Shown here: positions 3,250-19,533 of the stretch, piece by piece | How the letters are laid out: the number at the start of each line of letters is the position of its first letter | How positions within the stretch are numbered: position 1 is the stretch's first letter | Program-made: the position numbers and the translations under genes | Notes under the pieces: model-generated | Databases searched by the model: none | Told to the model about the DNA's origin: nothing | Seen by the model: only the letters and a program-made list of their open reading frames with translations | Source of the DNA: a virus | Length of the DNA stretch: 21,040 bases | Direction: 5' to 3' (one strand) | IMG/VR virus record: IMGVR_UViG_3300044620_000353 | Span: 1-21,040 of that record

Positions 3250-3735
3250 GCCATATTTTCTAAAAACGTACTCAGCCAAATTTCTGGCTTTGACAATCCT
3301 ATCCTTGCGGGTGAACTGGTTTATAACCAAAATACTTATTGGAATTTGACATTTACGAATTCCAATACAAACTTGCCAATCAATCTTACTGGTGCGACCA
3401 TCAACGCACAGATTGTTCGTAGGCAAGTCACAAACATCATTGATACCCGCAACGGGCTGACCTTTGACATTGCTGACTACAACCCAACCCCTACAGCGAT
3501 ACCCTTGACGGTAAGCAACATCGTTGCTGCTGCTGGCACTTGCACTTTGGTGATTGACAGCACGACATGGGGGTTAATTACGACTGATGCCCAACTTGAG
3601 ATTAACGCGACAAGTTGCGTGGGCTATTCAGGTCGGGTCAAGGTTTCATTCCCTGCTAGTGGCTCAACCCCTGCTGATGACCAAATCATCTTCTTGCTGT
3701 TCTTGGTTCGCTCTGATGGCATCGTGGTTGTATGA
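3247..3735 (+). CDS. Fibre-associated beta-sandwich protein, apparent ATA start
   Basis: The product is about 162 aa if it begins at ATA 3247. The only commonly accepted start, TTG 3346, has no Shine-Dalgarno and would remove 33 residues that read naturally into the rest ([10 protein letters not shown], then WNLTFTNSN). The pattern WNLTFTN ... [15 protein letters not shown] resembles the N-terminal beta domain of BppU-like baseplate or fibre proteins; the rest is beta-rich ([13 protein letters not shown]). It may anchor or connect the collagen fibre encoded next, to which it is joined by an ATGA overlap. The upstream homing endonuclease may have displaced the original start. Function is inference. 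Confidence 0.65.
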
Positions 3736-5576
3736 CAAAGGGAATAATCGTATCCCCTGCCAATAGAGGGGTTCAGGTTGTTGTAACGGATGAAAACAAC
3801 GTACAACTATTGATTGACAGCAATCGAGGCGTAAACCTTGAGGTTGTCCCTCAACCCCGTATTGATGTATTGGTTGACAAAGGCGTAAGTGGCCCTACAG
3901 GACCGCTTGGCCCTACTGGACCTACTGGCGCACCCTCAACCGTTCAAGGGCCTACAGGCGCAACTGGCCCTACTGGTGCTGCAGGCCCAACAGGGGCGGC
4001 ATCCACAGTTCAAGGCCCAACTGGTCCAACAGGCTCAACTGGACCTACGGGCGCGGCATCTACGGTGCAAGGCCCTACAGGACCTACAGGCTCACAAGGT
4101 GTAATTGGTCCTACAGGTGCTACGGGTTCGCCATCTACAGTTGCAGGACCTACAGGTCCTACGGGCAACCAAGGGCCAATGGGGTTTGTAGGTAATACAG
4201 GACCTACAGGACCGCAGGGCGTTGTTGGGCCTACAGGACCACAAGGAATTCAAGGTCTAACAGGACCAACAGGCACTCAAGGTATTCAAGGAATCCAAGG
4301 CCCAACTGGTCCTACTGGCGCTCAAGGCATACAAGGAATTCAAGGACCTACAGGTCCACAAGGTATCCAAGGTATTCAAGGTATTCAGGGTATCCAAGGG
4401 GTCACAGGTCCTACGGGCGCTCAAGGCAATACTGGACCAACTGGACCTACGGGTGCTGCTTCCACCGTTCAAGGGCCAACTGGACCAACTGGCGCACAAG
4501 GAACAGATGGTCAATCATCTAGTTTCTATCAATATCAGGCCGACACAAATCAAACATCTGGCACTCCAACCGCAGGGCATTTGTTTTGGAACACAGCAAC
4601 ACAGATTTCTGCCACTCAAATTACTGCAAGTCATCTTGAACAAGGTGGTTTTGATATTGATATTTTCTTGTCTTTCATTAAGACAGGCGATACCATTGTT
4701 TTACAAGACCAAAACAATTCTGCTAATTACCAAAAATGGCAAGTCTCAGCAACGCCTACTATTGTTCCAAATAGTTACATTAACTTGCCAGTTACATTGA
4801 TAACGTCTGGTGGTACAGGAACAACAAACTTTGCAAACAACCATGATTTGATTTTTGTCATTCAATCCCAAGGCGTTGTTGGCCCTACTGGTTCTACAGG
4901 ACCTACTGGCCCAACAGGAGCAAACTCCACAGTTGCTGGACCAACTGGACCGCAAGGCAACACAGGACCAACAGGGCCACAAGGTGCAATCGGCCCAACA
5001 GGACCGCAGGGCATCCAAGGTATCCAAGGCATACAAGGTGTTGCTGGTCCTACTGGCCCAACGGGTTCAACAGGTACAACGGGCGCACAAGGACCTACAG
5101 GCCCTACCGGAGCGCAAGGCATTCAGGGTATTGTTGGACCCACAGGCCCTACAGGGGCACAAGGCATTCAGGGTATTCAAGGTGATATTGGGCCAACAGG
5201 ACCAACAGGGGCGCAAGGTATACAAGGCGTAATTGGCCCTACTGGTCCAACAGGCGCACAGGGAATTCAAGGGATTGCAGGTCCTACTGGACCTACAGGC
5301 TCTACTGGTACGACAGGCCCAACTGGACCAACTGGTGCTAACTCCACAGTTGCTGGCCCTACAGGACCGACAGGCCCTGCGGGGTCAGGTTCTTCATTGA
5401 CGGTTAAAGACGAAGGCACGACACTCACCACTTCTGCAACTAGCCTTAACTTTACTGGTGCAGGTGTAGTTGCTACAAACGTAGGTAGTGATGTAACAGT
5501 AAATATCGCTGGCGGTGGTGGTGGCTCATCACCTCCAAAAGCAAAACTTGATACTTGGATGATTGGAGCAATGTAA
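3732..5576 (+). CDS. Collagen-like tail fibre protein with central globular domain
   Basis: This 614-aa protein has an N-terminal domain of about 53 residues ([18 protein letters not shown]). Gly-X-Y collagen repeats follow at about 54-260 and 380-551. Repeats are mostly [17 protein letters not shown] and GAASTVQ/STVAG interruptions. Between them lies a non-collagen domain (about 261-379, including [10 protein letters not shown] and [10 protein letters not shown]). The tail of about 60 residues ([11 protein letters not shown] ... [11 protein letters not shown]) is typical of phage fibre ends. It probably forms a trimeric triple-helical shaft with a knob in the middle. Thr-rich Y positions fit bacterial and phage collagens that lack hydroxyproline. 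The start is fixed by ATGA overlap with the upstream gene. The repetitive DNA could recombine. Confidence 0.85.
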
Positions 5577-14617: not shown

Positions 14618-14833
14618 TCACAACTCCTGAATGGTTACGCGGTAGGCTTTGCCCTGCATATCCACAATGTCAATGGTTTTGACAGTAGAGTTAAATACGC
14701 CATCAAAGTCTAAGTCCAGTTTGATGCGACCCACCTTGTCAAGCAGGTTTTCTTGGTCAAACTGCATTAGTGACTTTTGAACAATGTTTGCGATGTAATC
14801 GCAGTATGAAAGTTTGAATGATTGCTTCATCAT
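14618..14833 (-). CDS. Small phage protein of unknown function
   Basis: This 71-aa protein starts MMKQSFKLSYCDYIANIVQK and overlaps the replication loader gene by ATGA. A helical first half is followed by a beta-rich second half (GRIKLDLDFDGVFNSTVKTI ... YRVTIQEL). No catalytic motif or membrane span is seen. Confidence 0.6.
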   Translation of the reverse strand: MMKQSFKLSYCDYIANIVQKSLMQFDQENLLDKVGRIKLDLDFDGVFNSTVKTIDIVDMQGKAYRVTIQEL

Positions 14834-15225
14834 GTTTTCCTTAAGTATTGAGATTTAAGTTCTGCTAATTTTGCCAATGCTTCTGCTTTGGCTTTGTCGG
14901 TCTGCATTTGCTCATGCAGAGTTGGTTTCCTTTCAAGTCTTGGTAATGGTTTAACGGGGATTTCAGGACCTGCGTTGCACAGATTCCTAAACTTAATTGC
15001 GCTAGGAATAAACTCGCCATCCAGTTTGGCAATGGCAAAGTCCATGCTTGGTCGGTATGTCAGGAACTTGCCCAACTGGTTTTTCCATTCTTGTCGAACA
15101 AACTCTGGGTCAAGACCATCAAAATGTCGGTTAAATGGCGCACCAAAGATGGCCATCATTCGGCCAAAAATGTAATCAAGCCCTTGGTCTGCTGTGCAAA
15201 AATCATTCTCCAAGTAATTTGACAT
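14830..15225 (-). CDS. Lambda P-like helicase loader candidate
   Basis: This 131-aa protein starts at ATG 15225, preceded by GGAGGAGG in the mRNA sense. The longer TTG start would place that binding site inside the gene. The block DYIFGRMMAIFGAPFNRHFD, then EFVRQEWKNQLGKFL, then GEFIPSAIKFRNLCN parallels the region of lambda P-type proteins that ends in a proline-rich FxPSxxxF motif. It directly follows the DUF1376 protein gene, as P follows O in lambda, with a 23-nt overlap. The probable role is to bring the host replicative helicase to the phage origin. It is short compared with lambda P, so the assignment is moderate. Confidence 0.6.
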   Translation of the reverse strand: MSNYLENDFCTADQGLDYIFGRMMAIFGAPFNRHFDGLDPEFVRQEWKNQLGKFLTYRPSMDFAIAKLDGEFIPSAIKFRNLCNAGPEIPVKPLPRLERKPTLHEQMQTDKAKAEALAKLAELKSQYLRKT

Positions 15226-15913
15226 TGCTGCCTCCTCCAATAAGACCCCGTGTTAACCCTGAAATAACTCGCTGATTCATCTGGCCAGTTTTGCTAAGTT
15301 CGTCAGGCTTTATCCAATCAGCCTGAAATCCCTGCGACCCTCTGGCGCACCATATTGACAAAAATTCACTAAACGACATATTTGCCTTTGCCGCCTCTTT
15401 TCTTGCGCTATTGACTACGGTTTCAGTCACTGGCGCTTTCTTGGCTTTCCTGAGTTGTTTCCAATCATCCCAAATTTGTTTATCAACATCTGGTGGGCAA
15501 GCAACGCTAGTTGCTCTCTCTTTATTATGGTTATTGGTTATTGGTTTATGGTTATTGGTTGCTATTGGGGTAGCATTAGGGGGGCTATTAGCCTCCTCAT
15601 GGGGGGGCTTTGCCCACCTCTTAGCCGCCCCACGTTTACCCGCTTCGGCAAACTCTTTGTATTGCTTAATTTCCTTGTCAGCCCTTGGGTTAACAAACCC
15701 TTCAGGCGTTGAAAGAAAAAACTCATTAAGTACTGTTAAAACATCTTCTTCATGGTCGCGCATACCAATCTGGCGAGCAATATCACGATGCCTAATCGGT
15801 TGTTCATGGAGAAAATAAAAATCAAGCAAACGCCTATAGGCTAAATCTTCATACAAAGAAAGATGCCTTGTGTGACTCATGTAGTCACCAATATGGAACT
15901 GGTAGTAGTGCAT
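15203..15913 (-). CDS. DUF1376 (YdaU-like) phage replication protein
   Basis: This 236-aa protein has the DUF1376 N-terminal domain: MHYYQFHIGDYMSHTRHLSL, then DLAYRRLLDFYFLHEQPI and IARQIGM (about 1-85). A low-complexity linker rich in Asn, His and Pro follows (about 100-130). The C-terminal region (IWDDWKQLRKAKKAPVTET ... FLSIWCARGSQGFQADW) is typical of phage O-like initiators. It probably recognises the origin and recruits the loader encoded next. The DNA coding for the linker contains a 21-bp-period repeat that may be the origin itself. No clear Shine-Dalgarno precedes the ATG, and an in-frame stop excludes a longer start. Confidence 0.8.
   Translation of the reverse strand: MHYYQFHIGDYMSHTRHLSLYEDLAYRRLLDFYFLHEQPIRHRDIARQIGMRDHEEDVLTVLNEFFLSTPEGFVNPRADKEIKQYKEFAEAGKRGAAKRWAKPPHEEANSPPNATPIATNNHKPITNNHNKERATSVACPPDVDKQIWDDWKQLRKAKKAPVTETVVNSARKEAAKANMSFSEFLSIWCARGSQGFQADWIKPDELSKTGQMNQRVISGLTRGLIGGGSNVKLLGE
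15525..15560. repeat. 21-bp-period iteron-like repeat, candidate replication origin
   Basis: The 15-mer TTATGGTTATTGGTT occurs at 15525-15539 and again at 15546-15560, exactly 21 bp apart (two helical turns). Further ATTGG units lie between them and at 15564-15568. The repeat lies inside the DUF1376 gene, in the part coding for the low-complexity linker. In lambda the O-binding iterons also lie inside the initiator gene, so this is a plausible origin. No experimental support is available. Confidence 0.5.
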
Positions 15914-16057
15914 AAAACCGCTTTTTCAACCACCCTTTAGGAGGAACTTAGCGGCAGGAGAAGGGTTAACTCTTTTCGATTAGGTAGCAACTCCCAATCT
16001 AGCCGTGTTCCAACAATCAATTACGACTGCTTAAACGCATCATAAAACACAAACCTA
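15914..16057. promoter_or_regulatory. Intergenic region between rusA and replication gene with imperfect palindrome
   Basis: This 144-bp stretch lacks a gene on either strand. It contains an imperfect 20-bp palindrome at 15958-15977 centred on GTTAAC (GAGAAGGGTTAACTCTTTTC). Eight of ten positions pair perfectly and two are G-T. AGGAGG at 15939-15944 lies on the + strand and has no start after it, so it may be chance. The region could hold an operator or leader for the replication genes. I see no convincing -10/-35 pair. Confidence 0.35.
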
Positions 16058-18562: not shown

Positions 18563-18712
18563 ATGATTAAAGATACATTTTTGGCCATTGCGATTGGTGT
18601 TGTGATGGCACTGATATTGATTGAATGGGCAGTTGGATGCGGAGAGACATACACCGATTCAAAGGGTGTTGAGCATCGCCAAACCTGTGTGTTTGTAAAA
18701 GGCGGTGTATGA
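18563..18712 (+). CDS. Small membrane protein, leader of methyltransferase operon
   Basis: This 49-aa protein is preceded by AAAGGA 8 nt before ATG. It opens with a hydrophobic span (TFLAIAIGVVMALILIEWAVG) and ends with a short polar tail containing two cysteines (CGETYTDSKGVEHRQTC). Its TGA overlaps the methyltransferase ATG (ATGA). It is probably a small inner-membrane or exported peptide. The function is unknown. Confidence 0.65.
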   Translation: MIKDTFLAIAIGVVMALILIEWAVGCGETYTDSKGVEHRQTCVFVKGGV

Positions 18713-19533
18713 ATGAGTTGGCTCTTTTCGCAGGCGCTGGTGGAGGAATACTTGGTGGACACCTCCTTGGTTGGCGAACAGTCTGCGCTGTCGAATGGGA
18801 AGCCTACCCAGCAAGCGTACTGTGCGCCAGGCAAAATGACGGACTTCTCCCGCCTTTCCCGATTTGGGATGACGTACAAACCTTTGACGGAAAACCTTGG
18901 CGAGAAATTGTTGATGTTGTATCTGGAGGATTTCCCTGTCAGGACATTTCTGCCGCAGGAAAGGGTGATGGACTCGATGGGGAGCGAAGCGGAATGTGGA
19001 AAGAAATGGCACGGGTGGTTGGCGAAGTACGATCACAGTACGTCTTTGTGGAAAACTCCCCAATGCTCACTACTCGAGGAGGAGTTAGAGTCATTGGAGA
19101 CCTTACCGAAATGGGGTATGACTGTAAATGGACTGTTATGGGAGCAGCCGATGTTAATGCCCCACACCAGAGAGACAGAATGTGGATTGTCGGCAAATTG
19201 GCCAACACCAGTTCACAGCGAGGCCAGGCAGGGTCTACAGATTCGCAGGGAGGGCAAGAAAGGCACTCAAACGAGTCTCAGCACAGCGGTTCTAACTTGG
19301 CCTACACCTCGGACAAAGGGGATGTGTGGCGGGAGTGGGAGTTGGGATTTGTTGAACAAAAACACAACAATCGAAGAGGCTCGGCTAATGGGAGCAGGAA
19401 ATGGTGGTCAACTGAACCCAACGTGGGTCGAGTGGCTCATGGGGTGGCCTCTCGGGTGGACAGACTTAAAGCCATTGGAAATGGACAAGTCCCTCTCTGT
19501 GCTGCAACAGCCTGGAGAAAATTAACAATATAA
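18709..19533 (+). CDS. C5 cytosine DNA methyltransferase
   Basis: This 274-aa protein shows the conserved motifs in order: ALFAGAGGGILGG (motif I, 5-17), VVSGGFPCQDIS (motif IV, catalytic Cys77), FVENSP (motif VI, with Ser where Val is usual), HQRDRMWIV (motif VIII) and RLKAIGNGQVP (motif X). It transfers methyl from S-adenosylmethionine to C5 of cytosine at a specific site. In phages this often protects against host restriction. The region between motifs VIII and X, the expected target-recognition part, is short and low in hydrophobic residues. The whole gene is shared with a second reading frame that starts at 18713. The start is fixed by ATGA with the upstream small gene. Confidence 0.88.
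   Translation: MNELALFAGAGGGILGGHLLGWRTVCAVEWEAYPASVLCARQNDGLLPPFPIWDDVQTFDGKPWREIVDVVSGGFPCQDISAAGKGDGLDGERSGMWKEMARVVGEVRSQYVFVENSPMLTTRGGVRVIGDLTEMGYDCKWTVMGAADVNAPHQRDRMWIVGKLANTSSQRGQAGSTDSQGGQERHSNESQHSGSNLAYTSDKGDVWREWELGFVEQKHNNRRGSANGSRKWWSTEPNVGRVAHGVASRVDRLKAIGNGQVPLCAATAWRKLTI
18713..19525 (+). CDS. Overlapping +1-frame protein with WPTP motifs, nested in methyltransferase gene
   Basis: A complete 270-codon frame starts at ATG 18713, 4 nt after the methyltransferase ATG, and ends 8 nt before its stop. The protein is Trp/Met/Pro-rich and reads like a natural protein: SRFGMTYKPLTENLGE, YLEDFPVRTF, two WPTP motifs (163-166 and 196-199) and a C-terminal block NPTWVEWLMGWPLGWTDLKP (235-254). 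From memory, proteins with these blocks are frequent in phages next to or on top of cytosine methyltransferases, mostly annotated as hypothetical. Methyltransferase motif X and the MGWPxGWT block are encoded by the same bases. No function is known to me. Both frames may be translated from one binding site. Long minus-strand frames also exist here, so openness alone is not proof. Confidence 0.6.
   Translation: MSWLFSQALVEEYLVDTSLVGEQSALSNGKPTQQAYCAPGKMTDFSRLSRFGMTYKPLTENLGEKLLMLYLEDFPVRTFLPQERVMDSMGSEAECGKKWHGWLAKYDHSTSLWKTPQCSLLEEELESLETLPKWGMTVNGLLWEQPMLMPHTRETECGLSANWPTPVHSEARQGLQIRREGKKGTQTSLSTAVLTWPTPRTKGMCGGSGSWDLLNKNTTIEEARLMGAGNGGQLNPTWVEWLMGWPLGWTDLKPLEMDKSLSVLQQPGEN

Follow-up and report, generated by a model that had tools for sequence, protein, structure and literature searches.

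A viral contig of 21,040 bases, hereafter the window, carries a short tandem repeat inside a gene for a DUF1376 protein. The questions raised by this locus are whether the repeat is kept for the peptide that it encodes or for the DNA itself, and whether the segment around it can serve as an origin of replication, as the original prediction proposed. The features discussed below are listed in Table 1.

Table 1. Coordinates of the features in and around the DUF1376 gene of the window.
Feature	Position	Strand	Description
Upstream module, class C	15561..15612	-	coding ...CTAATAGCCCCCCTAATGCTACCCCAATAGC; putative initiator-binding repeats, assigned by homology and position
Heptamer array	15526..15560	-	AACCAAT AACCATA AACCAAT AACCAAT AACCATA; putative DNA unwinding element
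A/T-rich spacer	15516..15525	-	coding ATAAAGAGAG
Hairpin AGCAAC-GCTA-GTTGCT	15500..15515	+	c(GNNA)g tetraloop; coding AGCAAC-TAGC-GTTGCT
DUF1376 gene, putative initiator	15203..15913	-	N-terminal DUF1376 domain, disordered linker, O-like C-terminal domain
Next gene, probable P-like helicase loader	14830..15240	-	homologous to L067, L060, L054 and L109

The Heptamer Array in the Window

The gene matches PF07120 with E = 5e-19, in agreement with its earlier assignment to DUF1376. The 15-mer TTATGGTTATTGGTT occurs at 15525-15539 and at 15546-15560, and the repetition exceeds chance both in shuffled sequences and in synonymous recoding, which indicates that the repeat first reported is real. The offset of the two copies is 21 bp, as had been stated; however, the true unit is 7 bp. 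Tandem Repeats Finder gives a 7-bp unit, TGGTTAT, in 4.7 copies at 15528-15560, and on the coding (−) strand the array consists of five tandem heptamers of the form AACCANN. The lag-7 identity of the array is up to 22/26, a value that was reached in 0 of 2000 Markov shuffles of the DUF1376 gene and 0 of 300 shuffles of the window, and which synonymous recoding of the linker peptide of the window reaches with P = 1.5e-4. It is the sole array of its kind within the 21-kb record. If the heptamer were repeated without variation, CAA TAA would fall in frame once in every 21 bp, that is, a TAA in one of three units, so that a heptamer array that is to remain coding must show a period of 21 bp, or seven amino acids.

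The strand as read is G/T-rich at the array, as the original prediction had noted, and the A+T content is 71% at positions 15515-15566. The array falls within the extent of 15521-15570 that was first proposed, but the whole element is larger, at about 15500-15612, when the hairpin and a degenerate upstream module are included.

Conservation of DNA and Peptide among DUF1376 Genes

DUF1376 genes were collected from GTDB genomes and IMG/VR, sampled by the N-terminal domain only, which gave 160 nonredundant genes. A lag-7 score of at least 22/28 was found in the linker of 97 of these, compared with 1.6 expected when synonymous codons are resampled within each gene for the same peptides. Besides 7 and its multiples, only lag 11, together with 22, was far above this null, and lag 6 and its multiples were modestly above it. 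At least four [AC][AC]CA units spaced by 6-7 nt are present in 139 of the 160 genes (11.4 expected) and in none on the opposite strand.

The codons used in the arrays are nearly fixed: proline is encoded by CCA in 163 of 169 cases, compared with 31% elsewhere in the same genes, threonine by ACC in 159 of 207 (28% elsewhere), and isoleucine by ATA in 88 of 105 (18% elsewhere). In some phages, the unit is ACACANN, AAACANN, CACCANN or a hexamer instead of AACCANN, and these variants alter the peptide (TQDTEHI, PTPTPT, NQNQNQ) while the DNA theme is unchanged. The core positions of the heptamer are constant, and two other positions vary within a single array. Since a 7-bp period is impossible from peptide repeats, these results bear out the earlier suggestion that it is the DNA repeat, not the peptide, that is kept. 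The linker peptide would then be a by-product, in that the protein tolerates any disordered linker, which would leave the linker DNA free to be an origin. The conservation of reading frame was dropped as an argument, because 7-mers visit all frames. A G-quadruplex-forming repeat was also rejected, as some arrays (AAACAAG and ACACAAG units) have no CC or GG and four GG tracts are not universal. Hexamer arrays (AACCAG, CCAACA) were observed in L240, L396, L405, L212 and others, where they encode NQNQNQ or PTPTPT linkers, and the flanking hairpin is retained in several of the hexamer-array genes.

The absence of the repeats from close relatives had been named as an outcome that would speak against an origin; in 72 of 80 close relatives, the lag-7 array scores 17/21 or more, and the remaining 8 score 16/21. 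The array is also nearly confined to this family. In two scans of IMG/VR with the array pattern, open to any gene, 72 of 80 and 49 of 54 matches lie in DUF1376 genes, always on the coding strand, and several of the other matches are truncated copies. In 19 host genomes, 28 of the 30 matches that were read lie in DUF1376 genes, with one array locus per matching genome and two in one genome. Among cultured phages, the array occurs in Acinetobacter phages phiAC-1 and RM_A1, Moraxella phage Mcat18, Vibrio phage 1.052.A and Thalassomonas phage BA3. At L523 (genome G009, contig C11 near 14640), an AACCANN array lies in an ORF where a DUF1376 domain was not detected and which is either truncated or has another N-terminal domain. 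The circular, phage-like Acinetobacter plasmid pANC7919.1 (NZ_CP156790.1, L561; 60.7 kb) carries a DUF1376 (YdaU) gene with the array, and the stretches of its annotation that were read contain no second Rep gene, an observation that is consistent but not decisive.

Duplex Stability

The arrays have an A+T content of 65% compared with 51% for the genes, and the 12 nt after the array have a mean of 67% compared with the same 51%. In 72 of 108 array-bearing genes, compared with 11.2 expected, the 40-bp duplex of lowest stability is found at the array. The segment is thus predicted to be the most easily melted part of most of these genes.

The Hairpin Downstream of the Array

A class of hairpin is enriched and covaries within 0-45 nt after the arrays, and the hairpins cluster at 10-30 nt. 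Loops of the type C(TNNC)G account for 32 of 55 distinct tetraloop hairpins after the array, and for none of the 124 found in other parts of these genes. When CTNNCG anchors were picked regardless of pairing, each of the next three positions was paired in about 80% of the post-array anchors, compared with about 25% in 295 control anchors; all four pair types occur in the stems, with compensatory changes. Such anchors are present in 54 of 139 array genes, and a post-array hairpin by set criteria in 54 of 108, so that about half of the array genes have no clean one. The covariation supports the hairpin as a structure.

The strand on which it acts is suggested to be the template strand, where the hairpin reads c(GNNA)g; this form is predicted to be the more stable one for 31 of 34 hairpins, whether DNA or RNA parameters are used. 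Nakano and colleagues reportedly identified d(cGNNAg) by selection in 2002 as an especially stable class of DNA tetraloop. Coding-strand mismatches are A.C or C.A in 15 genes compared with G.T in 3; this direction of wobble was set aside as proof of the strand and is only suggestive, because C.T and other mismatches are equally common.

The hairpin and its T-rich flank could instead be read as an intrinsic terminator of antisense transcription or another regulatory RNA structure. On the + strand of the window, CTCTCTTTAT comes directly after the hairpin, which a simple terminator scan accepts, and the greater stability of the template-strand form with RNA parameters would suit such a role too. 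However, of 42 distinct hairpins, only 13 have a tract of at least 5 T in 8 nt on the template strand and 4 have one on the coding strand, and the scan found 4 sites compared with 1.9 in shuffled sequences. Stable RNA loops are expected to be of the GNRA or UNCG type, from which the template-strand loops GACA, GATA and GCTA differ. A terminator also accounts for neither the array nor the 11-bp repeats described below. An intrinsic terminator was rejected on the T-tract test, which it mostly fails, and we regard the whole class of RNA explanations as very unlikely.

The 11-bp Module Upstream of the Array

Upstream of the array, 11 bp is the best period in 78 of 108 array-bearing genes, and a strict test for period 11 is passed by 21 genes compared with 0.1 expected. 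The module of the window was assigned by homology and position because its own copy is degenerate, with a best 11-bp match of 9/16. The units fall into the classes cgttcaacgga, atgcgaacgca, aacccagtcgg, catgatgggta, gtcacgcacct and a CCCCNAT type, to which the window belongs. The class tracks the similarity of the N-terminal domain: 39 of 80 nearest neighbours with less than 75% identity agree in class, compared with 16.8 expected, an agreement for which linkage alone could suffice.

Near-identical sequences after the array can be joined to quite different upstream modules, as in L304 and L320. This would be expected if the array were a recombination crossover for swapping the N- and C-terminal modules of the initiator, with the repeats kept as homology for shuffling. 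Such a crossover leaves unexplained the 11-bp sites, the covarying hairpin with its fixed loop, the stability minimum and the near-confinement of the array to DUF1376 genes, and we consider it most improbable as the reason for the repeats; module swapping at an origin is likely to be a side effect.

The Gene and Its Neighbourhood

A profile search matched residues 102-213 of the DUF1376 protein to phrog_678, "replication initiation O-like", with E = 2e-15. This C-terminal domain aligns with annotated replication protein O and replication initiation proteins, with invariant residues in common, and the aligned replication proteins have N-terminal domains other than DUF1376. In the AlphaFold model, the pLDDT of the N-terminal domain is mostly about 90 or more, whereas most of the linker (residues 113-135) is below 50. 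A Foldseek comparison of the DUF1376 fold with the PDB gave no significant match, only weak winged-helix ones, and the sequence profile of DUF1376 gave no match to the PDB; binding of duplex DNA by this domain is for this reason a matter of inference.

The lambda P-like character that had been claimed for the next gene is supported only through its homologues: L067, L060 and L054 match phrog_109, "P-like helicase loader", at E = 2e-4 to 3e-3, and L109 is also among the matching homologues. The gene of the window itself reaches only E = 0.36 with this profile and has no direct profile match at the default cut-off. Profiles run on the next gene of the window and those of 61 relatives, 62 genes in all, identified a P-like loader (phrog_109) in 16, a DnaC-like loader in 6 and a DnaB-like helicase in 3. 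A RusA-like resolvase lies upstream of the DUF1376 gene on the same strand, and a Sak annealase, a YqaJ exonuclease and an SSB are encoded nearby on the opposite strand. A weak Rfam match to int-alpA RNA (E = 0.09; 23.2 bits, with a gathering score of 35.8) was observed at 15934-16009 (−), directly 5′ of the DUF1376 start.

Elsewhere in the window, two long ORFs on the + strand, 18709-19533 and 18713-19525, overlap almost completely in different frames. The first product is recognized as a C5 DNA methyltransferase (phrog_363, E = 3e-66; PF00145) and the second has matches of its own, to phrog_1008 (E = 3e-24) and phrog_26627, so that the two look like a genuine dual-coding pair. The ORF at 3732-5576 (+) encodes a collagen-like protein of 614 amino acids with GPTGPTG/GIQGIQG repeats (PF01391, E = 1e-44), which is probably a tail fibre.

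The Segment as a Probable Replication Origin

The arrangement in the window is that of a lambda-type origin. The array lies between the DUF1376 domain and the O-like domain, the latter placing the protein in the O-like initiator family (phrog_678); the easily melted A/T-rich region adjoins the upstream module, whose putative binding repeats are degenerate in the window; the inverted repeat at 15500-15515, with a loop of the same class as in lambda, lies downstream of the A/T-rich region; and a probable helicase loader gene, recognized by way of its phrog_109-matching homologues, follows directly. We conclude from these comparisons of sequence that the segment is very probably a lambda-type intragenic replication origin inside its own initiator gene, at which replication would be expected to fire. 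GC skew, computed for the window, phiAC-1 and P19250A, places no origin at the array; it is uninformative as a marker here, because the skew in the window tracks gene direction and phiAC-1 and P19250A are almost one-stranded.

Initiators often regulate themselves, and the sites lie inside the initiator gene, so that the repeats might be operators for autoregulation of the initiator operon and not an origin. We judge this extremely unlikely: the repeats are located hundreds of bases within the gene rather than at a promoter, an unwinding minimum and a hairpin are atypical of operators, and the same layout in lambda is its origin (PMC6022878). Neutral growth of the heptamer array through slippage, in a linker free of constraint, is scarcely conceivable, even if we consider the predicted disorder of the linker peptide and the replacement of heptamers by hexamers in some genes, since neutral expansion should yield arrays of unrelated sequence, whereas the same core is found on the same strand in distant phages beside fixed flanking elements, and stays constant while the two other positions vary within one array.

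If the segment is an origin, its operation may be pictured in four steps. The N-terminal DUF1376 domain would bind the class-specific 11-bp sites upstream of the array as duplex. This binding would melt the A/T-rich [AC][AC]CA heptamer array, whose easy melting is supported by the stability computation, and the initiator, the helicase loader or both may hold the exposed strand via its short motifs, which recur at regular intervals. The small d(cGNNAg) hairpin would fold on the template strand, once this is exposed, at the far edge, where it might mark the loading site of helicase or primase or the point at which unwinding stops; the role and strand of the hairpin are the part of the origin reading that we hold least certain. 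Finally, as gene order and domain identity suggest, the O-like C-terminal domain would recruit the helicase loader encoded next door.

In the literature searched, no paper on DUF1376 as an origin was found. With the present reading, DUF1376, a widespread phage family without known function, gains a testable role as an origin-binding initiator, and in the phages that encode it the origin would be narrowed down to some 110 bp. The segment would also be a coding region selected for its DNA, not its peptide, with two periods, 7 and 11, that are not those of codons.

Comparison with Known Origins

The Rac prophage of E. coli, an element with a known origin, oriJ (PMC3945230), has a DUF1376 protein, YdaU, followed by an ATP-binding (YdaV) gene. 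No heptamer array was found in Rac YdaU by the same statistic, and it was dropped as a direct example of an array origin. Iteron plasmid origins of the RK2 oriV type also place initiator sites beside short repeats in an A/T-rich unwinding element, which in oriV carries 13-mers (PMC10797057), and differ from the DUF1376 origins in repeat lengths.

Among phrog_678 proteins, those of Limnohabitans phage DC33, Pseudomonas phage KLEP17-4 and Mannheimia phage 587AP2 have the C-terminal domain in common with the DUF1376 protein. In several O-like genes whose N-terminal domains a profile search does not assign to DUF1376, the C-terminal domain is likewise preceded by 11-bp repeats and a TNNC hairpin; these genes differ in carrying AGAGAC hexamers and others in mid-gene. 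In 11 nonredundant genes of this kind, 8 CTNNCG anchors were found; the first stem position is paired in 7 of the 8, and so is the second. The taxonomy line of PQ492659.1 (phage DC33) gives Inoviridae, yet this is a 39-kb phage with an O-like initiator, and the classification looks wrong.

The closest comparison is with lambda, and it has become stronger than first claimed through the common C(TNNC)G hairpin. Within O, the established lambda origin combines iterons with an A/T-rich region of 39 bp (PMC6022878); O proteins of the lambda type bind the A/T-rich region in single-stranded form (PMC7466680). In NC_001416, the annotated iterons at 39034-39118 are followed by an A/T-rich stretch and then by a hairpin around 39173, GTCAGAGAATTC-TGGC-GAATCCTCTGAC, which is of the C(TNNC)G type (CTGGCG). 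Of its 12 stem positions, 11 pair; the exception is an A.C mismatch on the coding strand, that is, T.G on the template strand. A search with the C-terminal domain of lambda O returned near-identical copies alone. Like the segment in the window, the lambda origin (39034-39190) lies inside the initiator gene between the DNA-binding and C-terminal domains, runs from repeats through an A/T-rich stretch to a hairpin, C(TGGC)G in lambda, and is followed by the helicase loader gene, P, whose counterpart in the window was assigned via homologues. Lambda differs in that its four iterons are inverted repeats of 18 bp and its A/T-rich region is irregular, whereas the DUF1376 origins have 11-bp upstream repeats, a regular 7-bp (or 6-bp) array and a DUF1376 N-terminal domain. 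The covarying hairpin, to which the literature found assigns no function, ties the two together. We tentatively raise the possibility, about which we remain somewhat doubtful, that O-like phage origins, including that of lambda, have as a third element a strand-specific d(cGNNAg) hairpin of single-stranded DNA at the far edge of the melted region that directs the loading of helicase or primase, with phage-specific iterons and interchangeable unwinding arrays of short repeats being swapped as modules; the long-studied lambda origin would thereby gain a third element that can be tested.
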